This document shows positions 10,321-48,777 of a stretch of DNA of 64,000 nucleotides, one piece after another. Within the stretch, counting starts at the first letter, position 1. Every line of letters begins with the position of its first letter. The stretch is from positions 806,001 through 870,000 of the forward strand of contig NZ_OCMS01000002.1 in NCBI RefSeq assembly GCF_900215325.1, given 5' to 3'. A program made the position numbers and the translations under genes. The notes under the pieces are model-generated. The model was given only the letters and a program-made list of their open reading frames with translations. It was not told the origin of the DNA and did not search any database. The stretch comes from Fibrobacter sp. UWB16 (GTDB taxonomy: Bacteria; Fibrobacterota; Fibrobacteria; Fibrobacterales; Fibrobacteraceae).

Positions 10321-10340
10321 AGTGCGAGCAAAGATAGAAA

Positions 10341-10370
10341 AGTAACTAGTCAGTAGTTACTAGTTACTAT
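10341..10370. repeat. AGTTACT/AGTAACT short repeat cluster
   Basis: Three near-copies of AGTAACTAGT or its complement lie within 30 bases. The same words recur at 27629-27745 between two unrelated genes. Confidence 0.55.
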
Positions 10371-10423: not shown

Positions 10424-11446
<1,023 letters not shown>

Positions 11447-11447
11447 T

Positions 11448-11950
11448 AGACCGCTCGGCTCTTATGCAAGGCGGGGACTCCGTCTTCGCCTCGCTCTCAC
11501 GAACACGACCGGTTGATACCGGTCGCTTTTCGTTCACGGGTGACCGTTCGCGTCTAGAATCCATAGAAATATGTGAGCGTCGCTCACTCTCGTGAAAACG
11601 CCTGGCTAATGCCAGGCGTTTCTCGCTCGCACCTAATAAGACCGCTCGGCTCTATCGCAAAACAAGAATGTGATATCGCCTCGCTCTCGCCAACGCGACT
11701 CGTTAATACGAGTCGTTTATGGCTCACAGAGACCGCTCGGCTCTTATGCATGGCGGGGACTCCGTCTTCGCCTCGCTCTCCCCATTCGCGGACCATGTCC
11801 ACATAAGCACTAAAGTGCTAAGTGGAACAAAGGTCGCAATCGCGCTCGGTTAAATAAATCTAAACCGAGTGCAGCAGAAACAAAACTTGTTTGTTTCTAT
11901 TGTTGAGGTGCCGGTTTATGCGATGTAATCGCAATACCGAGCGCTTTTTG
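11448..11950 (+). repeat. tandem non-coding units with covarying hairpins
   Basis: About 500 bases without a credible gene. The 15-base word GACCGCTCGGCTCT(T/A) occurs at ~11449, 11640 and 11731, each followed ~25-35 bases later by CGCCTCGCTCTC. The hairpins lie at 11506-11525, 11599-11618 and 11696-11715, each an 8-bp stem with a T(G/A)AT loop, followed by a short T run and a GTTCAC/GCTCGC/GCTCAC word. The stem sequences differ but pairing is kept. The distal part (11810-11950) holds more inverted repeats: AGCACT/AGTGCT, CTCGGTT/AACCGAG, GAAACAAA/TTTGTTTC and TGCGAT/ATCGCA. The first hairpin with CTTTT probably terminates mdh. Confidence 0.75.
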
Positions 11951-11970
11951 CTCACAGAAAATCTAAGAAA

Positions 11971-12000
11971 TGTCATTCCCGCCTCTGAGCGGGAATCTCC
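11971..12000. repeat. dispersed palindromic repeat (GTCAT...CGGGNATCTCC family)
   Basis: TGTCATTCCCGC and GCGGGAATCTCC flank a short spacer. It is another copy of the element seen at 8981 and 33251. Confidence 0.7.
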
Positions 12001-12014
12001 TTCTTAACAAAACA

Positions 12015-12043
12015 GCCCTCGGGTGGAGAGAAAACCCGAGGGC
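12015..12043. terminator. rho-independent terminator, probably bidirectional
   Basis: GCCCTCGGGT (12015-12024) pairs with ACCCGAGGGC (12034-12043). It has a G(T)7A(T)4 tail on plus and a TGTTTTGTT tail on minus. It ends the minus-strand gene whose stop is at 12072. Confidence 0.8.
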
Positions 12044-12071
12044 GTTTTTTTATTTTGCTTTTGTGTGAATG

Positions 12072-13010
12072 TTATTTCAGCATGATTTCTTTTGCGAAAT
12101 TGACGTTCTTGCCGGTAACGCGAATCATGTAAGCCCCGGCATCGAGTGTGGCGAGGTTGAGCGAAGATGTTGTGATATCAATTGTACCTCTGAGAACAAC
12201 TTGACCTTGGCTATTGATGATTTCGGCTGTTGCTGCAGATTTGACTCCGGTAAAGCTGAGTGTGCGACCGGTAAGTGTAGCCTTGGCCGATGATGCGCTA
12301 CGAGTTGCATTGATGGCTTCACTGTCGTCAGAGCAATCTGTTAAGGGGCCGATTTTTTTGATGTTGAAATTATAGTCGCCATCGTTTGCTTGGATCTTGA
12401 ATTTGACGGCGACAAGACGCTTGGCGGCTTCTGTACCGGAAATTTTTACTGAACCCGTATACCAGCTGGGTTGCGCGAATTTAGACCAGGGAATGGCTTT
12501 GGTTGTAGGGACGTCTTTTGCTTTTGAAAGCTTGGCGACTGGGTTTGCGTATTCGATTTCTGAATCGAAGCTGCCGAGGCCGAGTTCTAGATCTGCTGAT
12601 ATATCGCATGTGTAAGTAATGCAGATGCCTTCCCATGCTGAAGCGTCGCCAGGTTCTGGGTCGCCTCCGCCAACGGCTTCTCCGACAACGTTGAAACCGA
12701 TACCGACAAAGGGGCTGTATTTTAACGTGGACTTAGACAGAGATGCTACGCCGCATACTCCTTTGCAGTGTGTGATTACCGCATCTAGAGATTCTCCGGT
12801 GTCGGTGCTTGTGTCTACAGGCCAATTTACTTTCGATTTACCTCCGTCTTCATTGTCGGCATAGCTGAACCAGTAACCTGAAGTTTCAGAACCATTATCA
12901 AGTCCTGTTTGGACTTGAGATATTCCGTCTTCGCCATTCCATGTTTGGAATGTTCCGGCGTATGCAACTGATGCTGCAAAGATTGCGGCTAGTGTGATTG
13001 TATTTTTCAT
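12072..13010 (-). CDS. secreted protein with type IX-like sorting domain, paralog 1
   Basis: A 312-residue protein with a signal peptide (MKNTITLAAIFAASVAYA). The central ~200 residues begin TFQTWNGEDG and have the aromatic/beta pattern of a carbohydrate-binding jelly roll (WEGICITYTCDI, IPWSKFAQPSW), resembling CBM11/CIA30-like folds, although the match is only by eye. Residues ~240-312 form a C-terminal sorting-type domain (AEIINSQGQVVLRG ... LDAGAYMIRVTGKN) as used by type IX secretion in the FCB group. AGGAGA lies 8 bases before the ATG. It is more diverged than the next two paralogs, which are close copies. Function is unknown; glycan adhesion at the surface is an inference. Confidence 0.75.
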   Translation of the reverse strand: MKNTITLAAIFAASVAYAGTFQTWNGEDGISQVQTGLDNGSETSGYWFSYADNEDGGKSKVNWPVDTSTDTGESLDAVITHCKGVCGVASLSKSTLKYSPFVGIGFNVVGEAVGGGDPEPGDASAWEGICITYTCDISADLELGLGSFDSEIEYANPVAKLSKAKDVPTTKAIPWSKFAQPSWYTGSVKISGTEAAKRLVAVKFKIQANDGDYNFNIKKIGPLTDCSDDSEAINATRSASSAKATLTGRTLSFTGVKSAATAEIINSQGQVVLRGTIDITTSSLNLATLDAGAYMIRVTGKNVNFAKEIMLK

Positions 13011-13130
13011 GGGGCTGTTCTCCTAATCCAAATGTTGAACTATAGATAAGATATACTTGTTTTGTATAAATGTTTTGAAAGCGAATTGAATAAAACGAAA
13101 AAGTATGAATTTGTTAATAATTGTATTTCT

Positions 13131-13174
13131 ATGATACGTATCATATGTATAACAAAGTATCTTTATGATACGTT
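13131..13174 (-). promoter_or_regulatory. shared upstream element, copy A
   Basis: Contains the palindrome ATGATACGTATCAT (13131-13144), and then CTTTATGATACGTTGTG further out (to ~13177). Read on the minus strand, CAACGTATCATAAAGAT and CATATGAT also occur upstream of paralog 3 (15371-15395). It lies ~120-165 bases before the start of paralog 1. Confidence 0.5.
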
Positions 13175-13221
13175 GTGTGCTATATGATGAAAATTAGTGA
13201 TTGACGATAAATTTTTTTATG

Positions 13222-13254
13222 AAAAAAAACGCCTGCAGAAAATGTCTGCAGACG
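13222..13254 (-). terminator. terminator for paralogs 2 and 3
   Basis: CGCCTGCAGA and TCTGCAGACG form a 10-bp stem with one G-T pair. Eight T residues (minus strand, 13222-13229) follow it. Confidence 0.8.
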
Positions 13255-13284
13255 CTGTTGAAATGAAAAAGTTTTTGTTTTAAA

Positions 13285-14271
13285 TTATTTCAAAATAATC
13301 TTCTTTGCAAAATTGATGCTTTTCCCGCTCACACGCACCATATAAATTCCGGCGTCGAGCGATGCGAGGTTAAGTGTTGCCGCGTTACTCGTGGCGTTGT
13401 TAATTACGCCTTTCATCACGACTTGCCCAAGAGTGTTCATCACTTCGACGGTTGCGGAGGCCTTGATCCCCGTGAATCCAAGCGTGCGCCCGTTCAAAAC
13501 GGCGCTGACTGCGGATGTTCCGCGGACAATCTGAATTCCTGCACTAGACATACCGCATTTTTCTGGGCATGTTCCGTCTTTCGGGCCGACCGCGCAGATG
13601 TTGAACTTGTATTTGCCGGGGGCTGCCTGAAGTTTAAAGTGTATGGCGGCGAGCTGTTTTGCTGCCGTCTCGCCGTCGATTTTAACGGCTCCATCGTACC
13701 ATGAAGGCTGTTTAAAGTCGGACCAGCTGACAACTACTTTGTTTCCGTCTTTTCCGTTGGGCGATAGAATGTCTGTAGCTTTTGCCGCGGGAAGTGTTAC
13801 TGCGGGATTTGCGTAATTGATCGTTGAATCGACAACAGGACCAAGGCCGAGTTCGAGTTGTAAGTCCGCATCGGAAGTGTAAGTTACGCAGAGTCCGCCC
13901 CAAGCGGATACATTGGCTGCGGCTGGGGTGACGTCGGTAAAAGATGTCTCACCAACGACATTGAAACCAAAACCGACATAAGGCAAATCTGTTTGAGAGC
14001 CGTTGTCGAGTTCTGCTATTGAACAAAATCCTTGACAAGTGGGGAGTATTACATCGGCGCAATAGATATATGGTGGGTCGATTCCATCGTCTGGGCATAT
14101 TGTTTTTGAACCAAGGTTGTCTTCGTAAGTGTACCAGCGGCCTTGGGTTTCTGTTTCGTTGCCAAGTCCGGTTTTGACTATGGGATCTTCATCTGCTCCG
14201 TTCCATGTGGTGAACTGCCCTGCGAAAGTTGCCGTTGCGGCACAAAGTGTAGCCAATGTAATATTTTTCAT
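13285..14271 (-). CDS. secreted protein with type IX-like sorting domain, paralog 2
   Basis: 328 residues, the same layout as paralog 1: signal peptide, FTTWNGADEDPIVKTG start of the mature chain, beta-rich domain with WGGLCVTYTSDADLQ and VVSWSDFKQPSWYDG, a Cys-rich loop (GPKDGTCPEKCG), and a C-terminal sorting domain ending MVRVSGKSINFAKKIILK. GGAGAGG precedes the ATG. It begins 15 bases after the stop of paralog 3, so the two are co-transcribed. DNA of the last ~100 codons is almost identical to paralog 3, pointing to recent duplication or gene conversion. Disulfides are likely in the CPDD...YCAD...CQGFC segment. Confidence 0.75.
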   Translation of the reverse strand: MKNITLATLCAATATFAGQFTTWNGADEDPIVKTGLGNETETQGRWYTYEDNLGSKTICPDDGIDPPYIYCADVILPTCQGFCSIAELDNGSQTDLPYVGFGFNVVGETSFTDVTPAAANVSAWGGLCVTYTSDADLQLELGLGPVVDSTINYANPAVTLPAAKATDILSPNGKDGNKVVVSWSDFKQPSWYDGAVKIDGETAAKQLAAIHFKLQAAPGKYKFNICAVGPKDGTCPEKCGMSSAGIQIVRGTSAVSAVLNGRTLGFTGIKASATVEVMNTLGQVVMKGVINNATSNAATLNLASLDAGIYMVRVSGKSINFAKKIILK

Positions 14272-14286
14272 CGTGACCTCTCCAAA

Positions 14287-15267
14287 TTATCTTAGCACAA
14301 TCTTCTTTGCAAAATTTACGTTTTTCCCGCTCACACGCACCATATAAATTCCGGCGTCGAGCGATGCGAGGTTAAGTGTTGCCGCGTTATCCGAAGCGTT
14401 GTTAATGGCGTTCTTCATCACGACTTGCCCAAGAGTGTTCATCACTTCGACGGTTGCGGAGGCCTTGATCCCCGTGAATCCGAGCGTGCGGCCGTTCAAA
14501 ATAGCTTTGACTGCGGATGTTCCGCGGGCAATTTGAATCCTAGTGCTAGACGTTCCGCATTTCTCTGGGCAGGTTCCGTCTTTCGGACCGACCGCGCAGA
14601 TATTGAAGTCGTAGTTACCGGGGTCTGCTTGAAGCTTGAAGTGAATGGCGACGAGTTGCTTGACTGCGGTTTCGCCATCAATTTTTACGGCTCCGTCATA
14701 CCAGGAAGGTTGTTTAAAGTCAGACCAACTGACGACTACTTTGTTGCCGTTAGTTCCGTTGGGCGATAGAATGTCTGCGGATTTTGCTGCAGGGAGTGTT
14801 ACTGCTGGATTGGCGTAGGAAATGGTTGAATCAACGATGTCCCCAAGGCCGAGTTCAAGTTGTAAATCAACATCTGAAGTGTAAGTAACACAAAGTCCGC
14901 CCCAGGAGGATGCGTCGCCTGCGGCTGGAGTATTGTTGGTAGTAGACGTTTCGCCAACAATGTTGAAGCCGACGCCTATAAAAGCTTTTGTAGCCGAAGT
15001 TCCTTGGTGGAGGCGTGCAGTTCCGCAAAATCCTTTACATATGTCAAGCGTTGCATCCGTGCAAGTGATAAAGGGTGGATCTATAGCGTCTGTTACGCAT
15101 GAAAAAGAAGCATAGTCTTCGTAGGTGTACCAGTAACCGTTTGTTTCTGTTTCGTTCCCAAGTCCGGTTTGAACTTGTGGATTTCCGTCAGCTCCGTTCC
15201 AGGTTTCGAATGGGCCAGCATAAATCGCTGACGCGGCGCAAAGTGCGGCCAACAAAAATTTTTTCAT
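14287..15267 (-). CDS. secreted protein with type IX-like sorting domain, paralog 3
   Basis: 326 residues, first gene of a two-gene unit with paralog 2. Signal peptide MKKFLLAALCAASAIYA, mature start GPFETWNGADGNP, central beta domain with WGGLCVTYTSDVDLQ and VVSWSDFKQPSW, a Cys-rich loop and a sorting domain ending MVRVSGKNVNFAKKIVLR. AGGAGAG precedes the ATG. The N-terminal half differs from paralog 2 at many positions while the C-terminal half is nearly the same, so the two parts have evolved at different rates. A shared element lies ~120 bases upstream. Surface display by type IX secretion is inferred from the tail. Confidence 0.75.
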   Translation of the reverse strand: MKKFLLAALCAASAIYAGPFETWNGADGNPQVQTGLGNETETNGYWYTYEDYASFSCVTDAIDPPFITCTDATLDICKGFCGTARLHQGTSATKAFIGVGFNIVGETSTTNNTPAAGDASSWGGLCVTYTSDVDLQLELGLGDIVDSTISYANPAVTLPAAKSADILSPNGTNGNKVVVSWSDFKQPSWYDGAVKIDGETAVKQLVAIHFKLQADPGNYDFNICAVGPKDGTCPEKCGTSSTRIQIARGTSAVKAILNGRTLGFTGIKASATVEVMNTLGQVVMKNAINNASDNAATLNLASLDAGIYMVRVSGKNVNFAKKIVLR

Positions 15268-46766: not shown

Positions 46767-48005
46767 ATGAATAATTATGGTGTTGTGCCGGCGGTGAGCT
46801 TGGCGCTTTTTTCGTGGGCATTATCATGCCCGGTGTTTACTGAATTCTATTCGGACCCGAAAGATGTTTCGGACCAGGAGGGCGAGTACGTCGAAATTCG
46901 CATGGACGATTTTCGAGCAGAATCGCTTTATGTGCAATTTGAATCCAAGGCGGTGATGGCTTTTGCATGGCCGGAGGCGGAACGCTTTGTGCTTGTGCAT
47001 GACACGGCAAAGTGTACGGCTGAGGCTTTACAGGGTGCGTCGCAAGATCTGTCGCAAGAACTGCCGCGGGCGAGTGTCGCATGTGGTTCGCTTGGGAAAA
47101 TCTCGCTCCCGAATTCACGAGAGTCTGTGTGGAAGGTCTGGGCGGGAACATGCAATGATTCTGTGACTGTTCCACGTCCTAAGCCGGGGAAGGTTATTCA
47201 ACGTGTAGGGCTGACGGACAAATGGGAGTTCGTTGACGCGTCTAAGGCGGTGTCGGTGCAGGAGAGTGCTGATTCACTTTTGAAGAATTTGTTGACTGCA
47301 GGAACCTCCCTGTTGCGGGTGACGGAAGTGCATCATTGTCCTGAAGAGCCTATGCCGGAATGGGTGGAACTCTACAATTCGAGTGAATATCCGCTCCCGC
47401 TAGAATCTTTCCGCTTTTGTGATCGCGGAGGCGCTTTGGGAATGTCGGGCGATTCGATTCGGCCGTACCAAGCGGTGCTTGTGAGCAAGGATACATCGTC
47501 TCTGCGGACTGCACTCAACATTCCCGATATTCGAATGATTCAGGTGTCGCTTGGCTTTTTGAATAACACAGAAGGTATGCTCCGGCTTTGCTATCGGGAT
47601 AGCGTGATTGATAGCGTTTATTGGAAAAAGGGAACGGTATCGTGCCCGTCTGGATTTAATCCGCTCTCGATGCGGCGTGAGTTTACGCCCGGGTATTTGT
47701 CTAAAAATGCGCGGAACGTGTCATTGGTTGGGGATGCGGCAAAAGCGCCTGTTGTGTACAAACTATCTTCTCGTGTAGTTTCAAAAAAAGGTTCTCCGCT
47801 TCGAGTGCTTGTGGAATCAGAATACAATGTTACGCTTTCGCTTTTGGATTCTGCGGGGCGTCGTGTGTGGAAATCCGTGGTCTCTGCATTGTCTAATGAG
47901 TGGGTGAAGGTCCCGGTGCAGGAATATCTTGGAATTGGCGCCGCTTATGTTTCGTTGTCTGTGGGGGAGTATGAGGATGTGGTCGGTATTCTTGTTCGCC
48001 CGTAG
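46767..48005 (+). CDS. secreted lamin-tail-like domain protein
   Basis: 412 residues from ATG 46767, where GGGGAGGG lies 5 bases upstream; a GTG at 46746 is less likely. A short signal peptide (to ~SWALS) precedes VFTEFYSDPKDVSDQEGEYVEI, a pattern typical of the start of a lamin-tail domain. A second related segment at ~190-310 begins LLRVTEVHHCPEEPMPEWVELYNSS. The C-terminal ~80 residues (LSLLDSAGRRVWKSVV ... GIGAAYVSLSVG) look like a beta-sandwich sorting or adhesion tail. Location is inferred to be outside the cell. The next gene overlaps its end by 29 bases. Confidence 0.7.
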   Translation: MNNYGVVPAVSLALFSWALSCPVFTEFYSDPKDVSDQEGEYVEIRMDDFRAESLYVQFESKAVMAFAWPEAERFVLVHDTAKCTAEALQGASQDLSQELPRASVACGSLGKISLPNSRESVWKVWAGTCNDSVTVPRPKPGKVIQRVGLTDKWEFVDASKAVSVQESADSLLKNLLTAGTSLLRVTEVHHCPEEPMPEWVELYNSSEYPLPLESFRFCDRGGALGMSGDSIRPYQAVLVSKDTSSLRTALNIPDIRMIQVSLGFLNNTEGMLRLCYRDSVIDSVYWKKGTVSCPSGFNPLSMRREFTPGYLSKNARNVSLVGDAAKAPVVYKLSSRVVSKKGSPLRVLVESEYNVTLSLLDSAGRRVWKSVVSALSNEWVKVPVQEYLGIGAAYVSLSVGEYEDVVGILVRP

Positions 48006-48777
48006 GTTTGCTTGTGCGTACATGTACGCTTGGCTTTGTATGGGCTTTATTTTACTTTGTTGCTTGTTGATGGCGCCGGGGCGAGCCTTGGCTGCGGAGG
48101 GGCGTGCTTCGTTTGCGTCTTTGCTCGCGGGAGGGCTTTCTCCTGTTGGTCTTGGCGGCTACAATTCGACTCCTGCACGGTATGCAATCCCATCGTATGG
48201 AGTCTCTTATTATTGGCTAGACGATGTTGTAGAGTCATCTTGGAATTTGTCTCTTGAATTTGGGAGCGATGCATATCGCGTGAGTGCTTTTGTCGATTAC
48301 GAGACGATGGATTCGCTGTATCGCAATTTGTATTCAGAAATATCTTATGCAAAAACGTGGCCGCATTTTGCGCTTGGGATGAGCTATGGGCTTGGTCTAG
48401 AGTGGATTCCTGGCGATGCGCTTTGGGCACGACACCGATTCAAGTGGGCGGGGACCTTTAATTGGCGACAAGTCTATCTGGCGGGGATGCTCGGTGGCTT
48501 TACAGACGAGGGCATTTTACCTGCTGTAGGCGTTCATTGGATCTCGGATGAAGCAGTTTCTGCCTTTGCGGAATACGATTTCGACTACTTGTATGCTGGG
48601 GCGAGTTTTCGCTGGAAATTTGTGGAGCTCAGCTCGTCTTACCGATTCCCGGACTTTGCCGTGGCTCTACAGATTTCATTCCGTGGCGCTCATTGCGGGG
48701 CCTCATATGCTCGAGGATTTAAGCACAATTCGATAGGCTGGAATAGCGTTCAAGTTACACGATGGCTAAAAAAATGA
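47977..48777 (+). CDS. putative outer-membrane beta-barrel protein
   Basis: 266 residues from ATG 47977, with GGGGAG ~8 bases upstream and the start inside the preceding gene, so translation is likely coupled. The first ~42 residues are hydrophobic with a signal-peptidase-like end (GRALAAEG). The mature chain is rich in alternating aromatic/polar strands (VSYYWLDDVVESSWNLSLEFG, ending ALQISF and YARGF), as in barrels with ~12 strands. I recognise no family. Pairing with the lamin-tail-like secreted protein suggests a surface partner. Confidence 0.6.
   Translation: MWSVFLFARRFACAYMYAWLCMGFILLCCLLMAPGRALAAEGRASFASLLAGGLSPVGLGGYNSTPARYAIPSYGVSYYWLDDVVESSWNLSLEFGSDAYRVSAFVDYETMDSLYRNLYSEISYAKTWPHFALGMSYGLGLEWIPGDALWARHRFKWAGTFNWRQVYLAGMLGGFTDEGILPAVGVHWISDEAVSAFAEYDFDYLYAGASFRWKFVELSSSYRFPDFAVALQISFRGAHCGASYARGFKHNSIGWNSVQVTRWLKK

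Follow-up and report, generated by a model that had tools for sequence, protein, structure and literature searches.

A double-hairpin unit of the Fibrobacteraceae, frequently placed at gene stop codons, as a probable interspersed palindromic repeat

Directly behind the malate dehydrogenase gene (mdh) of Fibrobacter sp. UWB16, we identified four tandem copies of a repeat unit of about 94 nt (positions 11448-11955 of the window, the whole 64,000-nt stretch of DNA analyzed here), the last of which bears two extra insertions. The unit has the layout GACC, a first hairpin (hp1), CUCUC, a second hairpin (hp2) with the loop UURAUA, and GCUCAC; hp2, with hp1 standing 5′ of it, combines an outer stem, an inner stem and a loop that in DNA form reads TTRATA. 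We favor, with moderate confidence, the reading that these units are Fibrobacteraceae-specific interspersed palindromic repeats that turn over as DNA and are carried in 3′ UTRs. The family is apparently undescribed so far as open-access main texts go: no account of it turned up in those searched, among them the genome paper of the genus and a survey of structured RNAs. Likewise, Rfam 15 returned nothing at gathering score for positions 11400-12070, the best matches by E-value falling far below the family cut-offs. The features of the locus are as follows (bit scores are from the covariance model described below):

10505 to 11446, plus strand: mdh, coding for malate dehydrogenase and ending in a stop codon directly next to unit 1
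11448 to 11540, plus strand: unit 1 (99.5 bits), starting at the mdh stop codon and made up of GACCGCTCGGCTCT, hp1 GGCGGGGAC/GTCTTCGCC, CTCGCTCTC, the hp2 inner stem (11506-11525) and GTTCAC
11541 to 11633, plus strand: unit 2 (78.8 bits), with the diverged boxes GACCGTTCGCGTCT and GCTCACTCTC and the hp2 inner stem at 11599-11618
11639 to 11730, plus strand: unit 3 (98.5 bits), with hp1 ATCGCA/TGTGAT, the hp2 inner stem at 11696-11715 and GCTCACAG
11730 to 11955, plus strand: unit 4, with hp1 as in unit 1 and hp2 broken up by two insertions, reading GCAA (11836-11839).GCGCTCGGT (11842-11850) ... ACCGAGCGC (11936-11944).TTGC
11781 to 11835, plus strand: family (a), a dispersed hairpin repeat (GGACCATGTCCACATAAGCACTAAAGTGCTAAGTGG) that interrupts unit 4 immediately 5′ of hp2
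11854 to 11932, plus strand: family (b), an hp2 loop domain with an ATAAATC ... GGTTTAT arm and a GCGATGTAATCGC hairpin
12009 to 12049, plus strand: canonical intrinsic terminator, predicted from its sequence, for the mdh transcript, 3′ of all units

A sequence-only reading of this DNA had described hairpins at 11506-11525 (CGACCGGT/ACCGGTCG, loop TGAT), 11599-11618 (CGCCTGGC/GCCAGGCG, loop TAAT) and 11696-11715 (CGACTCGT/ACGAGTCG, loop TAAT), and all three are present exactly as claimed, with a short T-rich stretch and then GTTCAC, GCTCGC and GCTCAC, respectively, on their 3′ sides. They correspond to hp2 of units 1-3, each of which has an outer stem too. The three tandem units recognized in that reading are all real, but the fourth (11730-11955) had been overlooked. 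Similarly, the word GACCGCTCGGCTCT does occur three times (11449, 11640 and 11731), but not in front of all three hairpins as had been stated: it stands ahead of hairpins 1 and 3 and of the fourth unit, whereas the word before hairpin 2 is the diverged GACCGTTCGCGTCT at 11543. The feet of hp1 in unit 2 are altered on both sides (GC..GGC with GCC..GC becoming GT..GCG with CGC..AC), and this type of unit is also found behind mdh in several other species. Units 1-3 fold with z-scores of -3.8, -5.1 and -5.4 relative to shuffled sequences, and the region of unit 4, whose hp2 loop is enlarged by an insert of ~90 nt, with a further element ahead of this hairpin, likewise folds well below its shuffles. 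Overall, hp1 ranges from interrupted stems (GC.TC.GGC/GCC.TC.GC) to perfect ones (TAATCGGCT/AGCCGATTA, GCATGC/GCATGC, GGCGGC/GCCGCC), while the inner stems of hp2 assume many sequences, CGCCTCGT..ACGAGGCG being the commonest, with a TRAT tetraloop in most.

A covariance model built from 12 units of this genome, aligned with MAFFT, yields 22 matches in the 3.56-Mb complete genome itself and is positive in 60 of 61 Fibrobacter genomes, with 3-68 matches per positive genome. A search of related Fibrobacter genomes, as the earlier reading had called for, recovers a real family with preserved pairing. Across a sample of the phylum, 85 of 168 genomes are positive, distributed over 3 of 41 genera that all belong to a single family (Fibrobacter and two sister genera). 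When public genomes were scanned for the hp2 consensus, the matches listed came from Fibrobacter/Fibrobacterales only. Viral contigs scanned with the same consensus gave no match, and a phage or virus origin was accordingly dropped.

The units occur in tandem arrays of one to five, which show a clear proclivity for stop codons: for 67 of 115 arrays, the start falls between -8 and +4 nt relative to the stop codon of a gene in sense orientation, genes being taken as reading frames of 100 codons or more. The stop codons concerned are TAA in 54 cases, TAG in nine and TGA in four. Among the matches listed in the public-genome scan, a sense stop lies within -25 to +10 in 48 of 78 arrays, and in 40 within 3 nt. 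Antisense stops close to the far end of the arrays form no sharp peak. In the UWB16 genome, the genes with units at their stop codons code for malate dehydrogenase, PurC, elongation factor P, SMC, EF-G and serine hydroxymethyltransferase. About 40% of the arrays are located away from any detected gene stop; stop-like triplets are seen in 33 of the 48 non-gene arrays, a count that we give no weight, as it is inflated by any T before GACC, which itself gives TGA. Other arrays come after terminators, for example, behind tmRNA (named by eye). Three loci show further peculiarities. At L067 (G000:C1:319796), the upstream reading frame seems to run into the unit and end there with a TAA (GACCTAATCGG). 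At L104 (G000:C1:530500-535500), a ~140-nt ilvD-like 3′ end (named by eye) is present three times at ~532440-533120, with an antisense unit at each junction. At L105 (G000:C5:45500-50500), an rplT-like 3′ end (named by eye) is duplicated around two antisense units at ~47770-48020.

Comparison between relatives points to turnover. Of the species inspected at mdh, about half carry one to four units and half carry none; genome G004 has no units there although its mdh fragment is 98% identical, and G010 (filled) and G030 (empty) form a clean pair. At purC, the states across relatives are no unit, a half unit, a unit plus a half, and a unit with family (b) plus a half, whereas at glyA one hp1 is combined with differing hp2 stems among close relatives. 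Units also vary among relatives at the efp, SMC, fusA and tmRNA loci. Several points count against the repeat reading. The type of mdh unit 2 and the fusA type are each retained at one locus in several species. With respect to a general target-site duplication, there is no clear excess of matches between flanks (63 of 1000 permutations of the pairs score as high), and duplication-like flanks are limited to single loci, namely mdh (ACGTAA), glyA (ACAAGTAA) and efp (TAA). The Y1 transposase (PF01797) is absent from the UWB16 genome, though present in 20 of 61 genomes of the genus, and RAYT was hence rejected as the mover. Reverse transcriptase (PF00078) is absent from the UWB16 genome and from 29 of 41 genomes; its absence from the former likewise led us to set aside a retro-transposed element.

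The units are themselves hosts to other structured elements. Family (a) has many copies in the genus. Family (b) by inspection forms a three-way junction; 19 of the 19 distinct copies found sit in an hp2 loop, where they split TTAATA. Its arms ATAAACC/GGTTTAT, together with GCGAT/ATCGC, GCAAT/ATTGC and GCGAC/GTCGC, covary by inspection. In some relatives (L162, L180 and L184), a third structured insert of ~100 nt, family (c), follows GCAA within the 5′ arm of hp2. One may also conceive of the unit as a mobile or domesticated double-hairpin RNA/DNA element whose position is linked to the termination of translation, so that it enters or is retained right at stop codons of all three kinds, and whose hp2 loop is in turn a specialized target for the entry of another structured element, but we regard this as unlikely.

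The pairing is strongly preserved. Among the 12 units of the UWB16 genome, covariation amounts to 0.436, as compared to 0.164 ± 0.023 in shuffles, with double changes in 13 of 19 pairs. For 115 distinct units drawn from many genomes it reaches 0.549 as compared to 0.151 ± 0.007, with 95.1% of the cells paired and 421 double-changed cells versus 112 in shuffles; this larger alignment was fitted to the covariance model and hence favors structure, but the slid controls, all of which collapse, and a plain MAFFT alignment concur. Arm sequence changes almost completely while pairing stays. Nearly all of the ~3,100 stem cells are Watson-Crick: 24 are G-U (about 1%) and 15 A-C, a ratio that is not decisive as a test of strand (p = 0.20). 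C-G to G-C swaps, which cannot go via G-U, are frequent. Non-Watson-Crick pairs are also rarer in hp2 than in terminators of the same DNA (G-U in 8/377 versus 54/985, p = 0.008, unique stems), a comparison biased by the preference of the model search for well-paired units. As the stems are almost purely Watson-Crick, covariation by itself is no proof of selection on RNA; combined with the C-G/G-C swaps and the replacement of whole stems, this leaves room for block replacement or a DNA-level palindrome. It suggests that much of the covariation stems from whole-hairpin exchange or palindrome maintenance at the DNA level, not from stepwise RNA selection. Thus, the conserved pairing noted in the sequence-only reading holds, but the conclusion of RNA selection that it drew from the covariation is weakened. 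At the same time, fusA orthologues display a compensatory change from GGGGC/GCCCC to GGGTC/GACCC, implying that in-place compensation occurs as well. More generally, covariation can be strong and G-U intermediates few without any selection on RNA.

A canonical terminator mostly follows at mdh loci with or without units, which places the units inside the presumed 3′ UTR. The units are probably transcribed as part of the mRNA. We posit that they would have spread and turned over as DNA repeats, dispersed through some mobilizing activity, and that units within an array might be gained or lost by recombination between the repeated boxes. Their persistence at stop codons could mean that they are tolerated there, a structured 3′ UTR being harmless or perhaps stabilizing the mRNA. 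REPs of E. coli can stabilize mRNA. On this view, the feature conserved for recognition or structure would be the hairpins, and contacts would likely be made through the loop and the short unpaired boxes. Against this, the exact anchoring to stop codons and the conserved unpaired boxes go beyond what a tolerated site would obviously need, and a cis-acting RNA function could account for them.

Such a function is the main rival to the repeat reading: a cis-acting 3′-UTR RNA element, in which, once translation has terminated, the two hairpins with their unpaired boxes would recruit a protein or hold off exonucleases, thereby controlling the stability of the mRNA or the formation of its 3′ end, is possible, if on the unlikely side. 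The sense orientation right at stop codons, the position of the units between stop and terminator at mdh, the strong conservation of the pairing, of the UURAUA loop and of the GACC/CUCUC/UCAC boxes, and the orthologous compensatory change at fusA would all fit such an element. It is harder to reconcile with close relatives without units at the same genes (G004), a copy number of 3-68, the roughly 40% of arrays that lack a detected gene stop at their start and the rarity of G-U, which is not clearly above A-C (24 versus 15). The earlier reading had also offered an array of intrinsic terminators, which does not hold up well and which we consider very unlikely. While hp2 is G+C-rich with a Y-T-T tail, and that of fusA resembles a true terminator (TTCTTTTTG), with one relative retaining just that hairpin, the usual tail (CTTATGGC, TTTGTTGC) consists of a few bases that fold back onto the 5′ arm; a free U-tract directly after the hairpin is missing in most units, the fusA type being the exception. 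Moreover, mdh loci with units mostly have the canonical terminator further downstream, like those without, and some units come after an existing terminator (tmRNA). Of the options raised in that reading, the mobile palindromic element fares best.

A folded single-strand DNA recombination site, comparable to integron attC sites or IS200/IS605 ends, would account for the two-hairpin layout, variable stems, conserved short unpaired boxes, tandem arrays and variable loop domain, as well as for the almost pure Watson-Crick pairing. Nevertheless, it is highly improbable: the UWB16 genome has no Y1 transposase, there is no space for cassette ORFs between units, and the outer stem varies (GCCA/TGGC and GCGA/TCGC occur) where an attC core motif would be expected to stay constant. 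We give hardly any credence to trans-acting small RNAs released from 3′ UTRs; the units are indeed multi-copy, RNA-like structures at 3′ ends, but their variable parts, which would have to provide the targeting, are tied up in stems, we see no variable single-stranded stretch that resembles a seed, and the presence of units differs by locus.

Returning to the repeat reading, the closest parallels are the REP, BIME and REPIN elements of enterobacteria and Pseudomonas, which are likewise short extragenic palindromes in many copies, 3′ of genes and with other elements inserted. With 22 matches in its own genome and up to 68 elsewhere, the Fibrobacter repeat equally has many extragenic copies. Passages in the REP literature describe other mobile elements as targeting REPs (PMC1525189) and REP classes as defined by a GTAG- or CGTC-type tag at the hairpin foot (PMC3733652). 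In contrast, the feet of hp1 and hp2 in the aligned units are GACC, CTCTC and TCAC, with no GTAG or CGTC tag, and the UWB16 genome is without a Y1/RAYT transposase. The Fibrobacter unit further differs in comprising two different hairpins in one direction, in its start at the stop codon and in its almost free arm sequence. Hence, it is best read as REP/BOX-like in kind, copy number and location, but not as a REP by membership, for which tag and transposase fail. BOX, ERIC and Correia-type repeats are modular, interspersed elements of about 50-150 bp that can fold as RNA. The Fibrobacter repeat shares their shortness, modularity, interspersion and foldability but shows neither terminal inverted repeats nor a constant target duplication, and its pairing is conserved more than its arm sequence. 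The MITE hallmarks of terminal inverted repeats plus constant target duplication are likewise not seen, TAA or longer repeats flanking the units at some loci only. Integron attC sites have variable palindromic arms around short conserved boxes, a variable loop domain and a tandem arrangement. The Fibrobacter units resemble them in all these respects but have no cassettes and, by inspection, different box sequences. With intrinsic terminators they share the T-rich 3′ side of hp2, but the tail is short and paired, and at mdh a canonical terminator lies downstream.

The family occurs in 60 of 61 sampled genomes of a major cellulose-degrading rumen genus and is linked to the 3′ ends of core genes. 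As one and the same gene may occur with or without units, with swapped hairpins or with the loop domain, it offers a natural experiment that would probe both the spread of palindromic repeats and the effect of 3′-UTR hairpins on mRNA.

Further elements neighbor the array in the window. At 11971-12000, ATGTCATTCCCGCCTCTGAGCGGGAATCTCC resembles a CGTC-type REP palindrome, and similar copies are found behind mdh in other Fibrobacter species. On the minus strand, 12072-15267 holds three tandem paralogous genes (312-328 aa) sharing a C-terminal domain that resembles a type IX secretion sorting signal. Finally, an AT-rich direct repeat (AACTAGTCAGTAGTTACTAGTTACTAT) is located at 10340-10370, and similar TAACTAGTAACTATTAACTAG runs are found near tmRNA in relatives.
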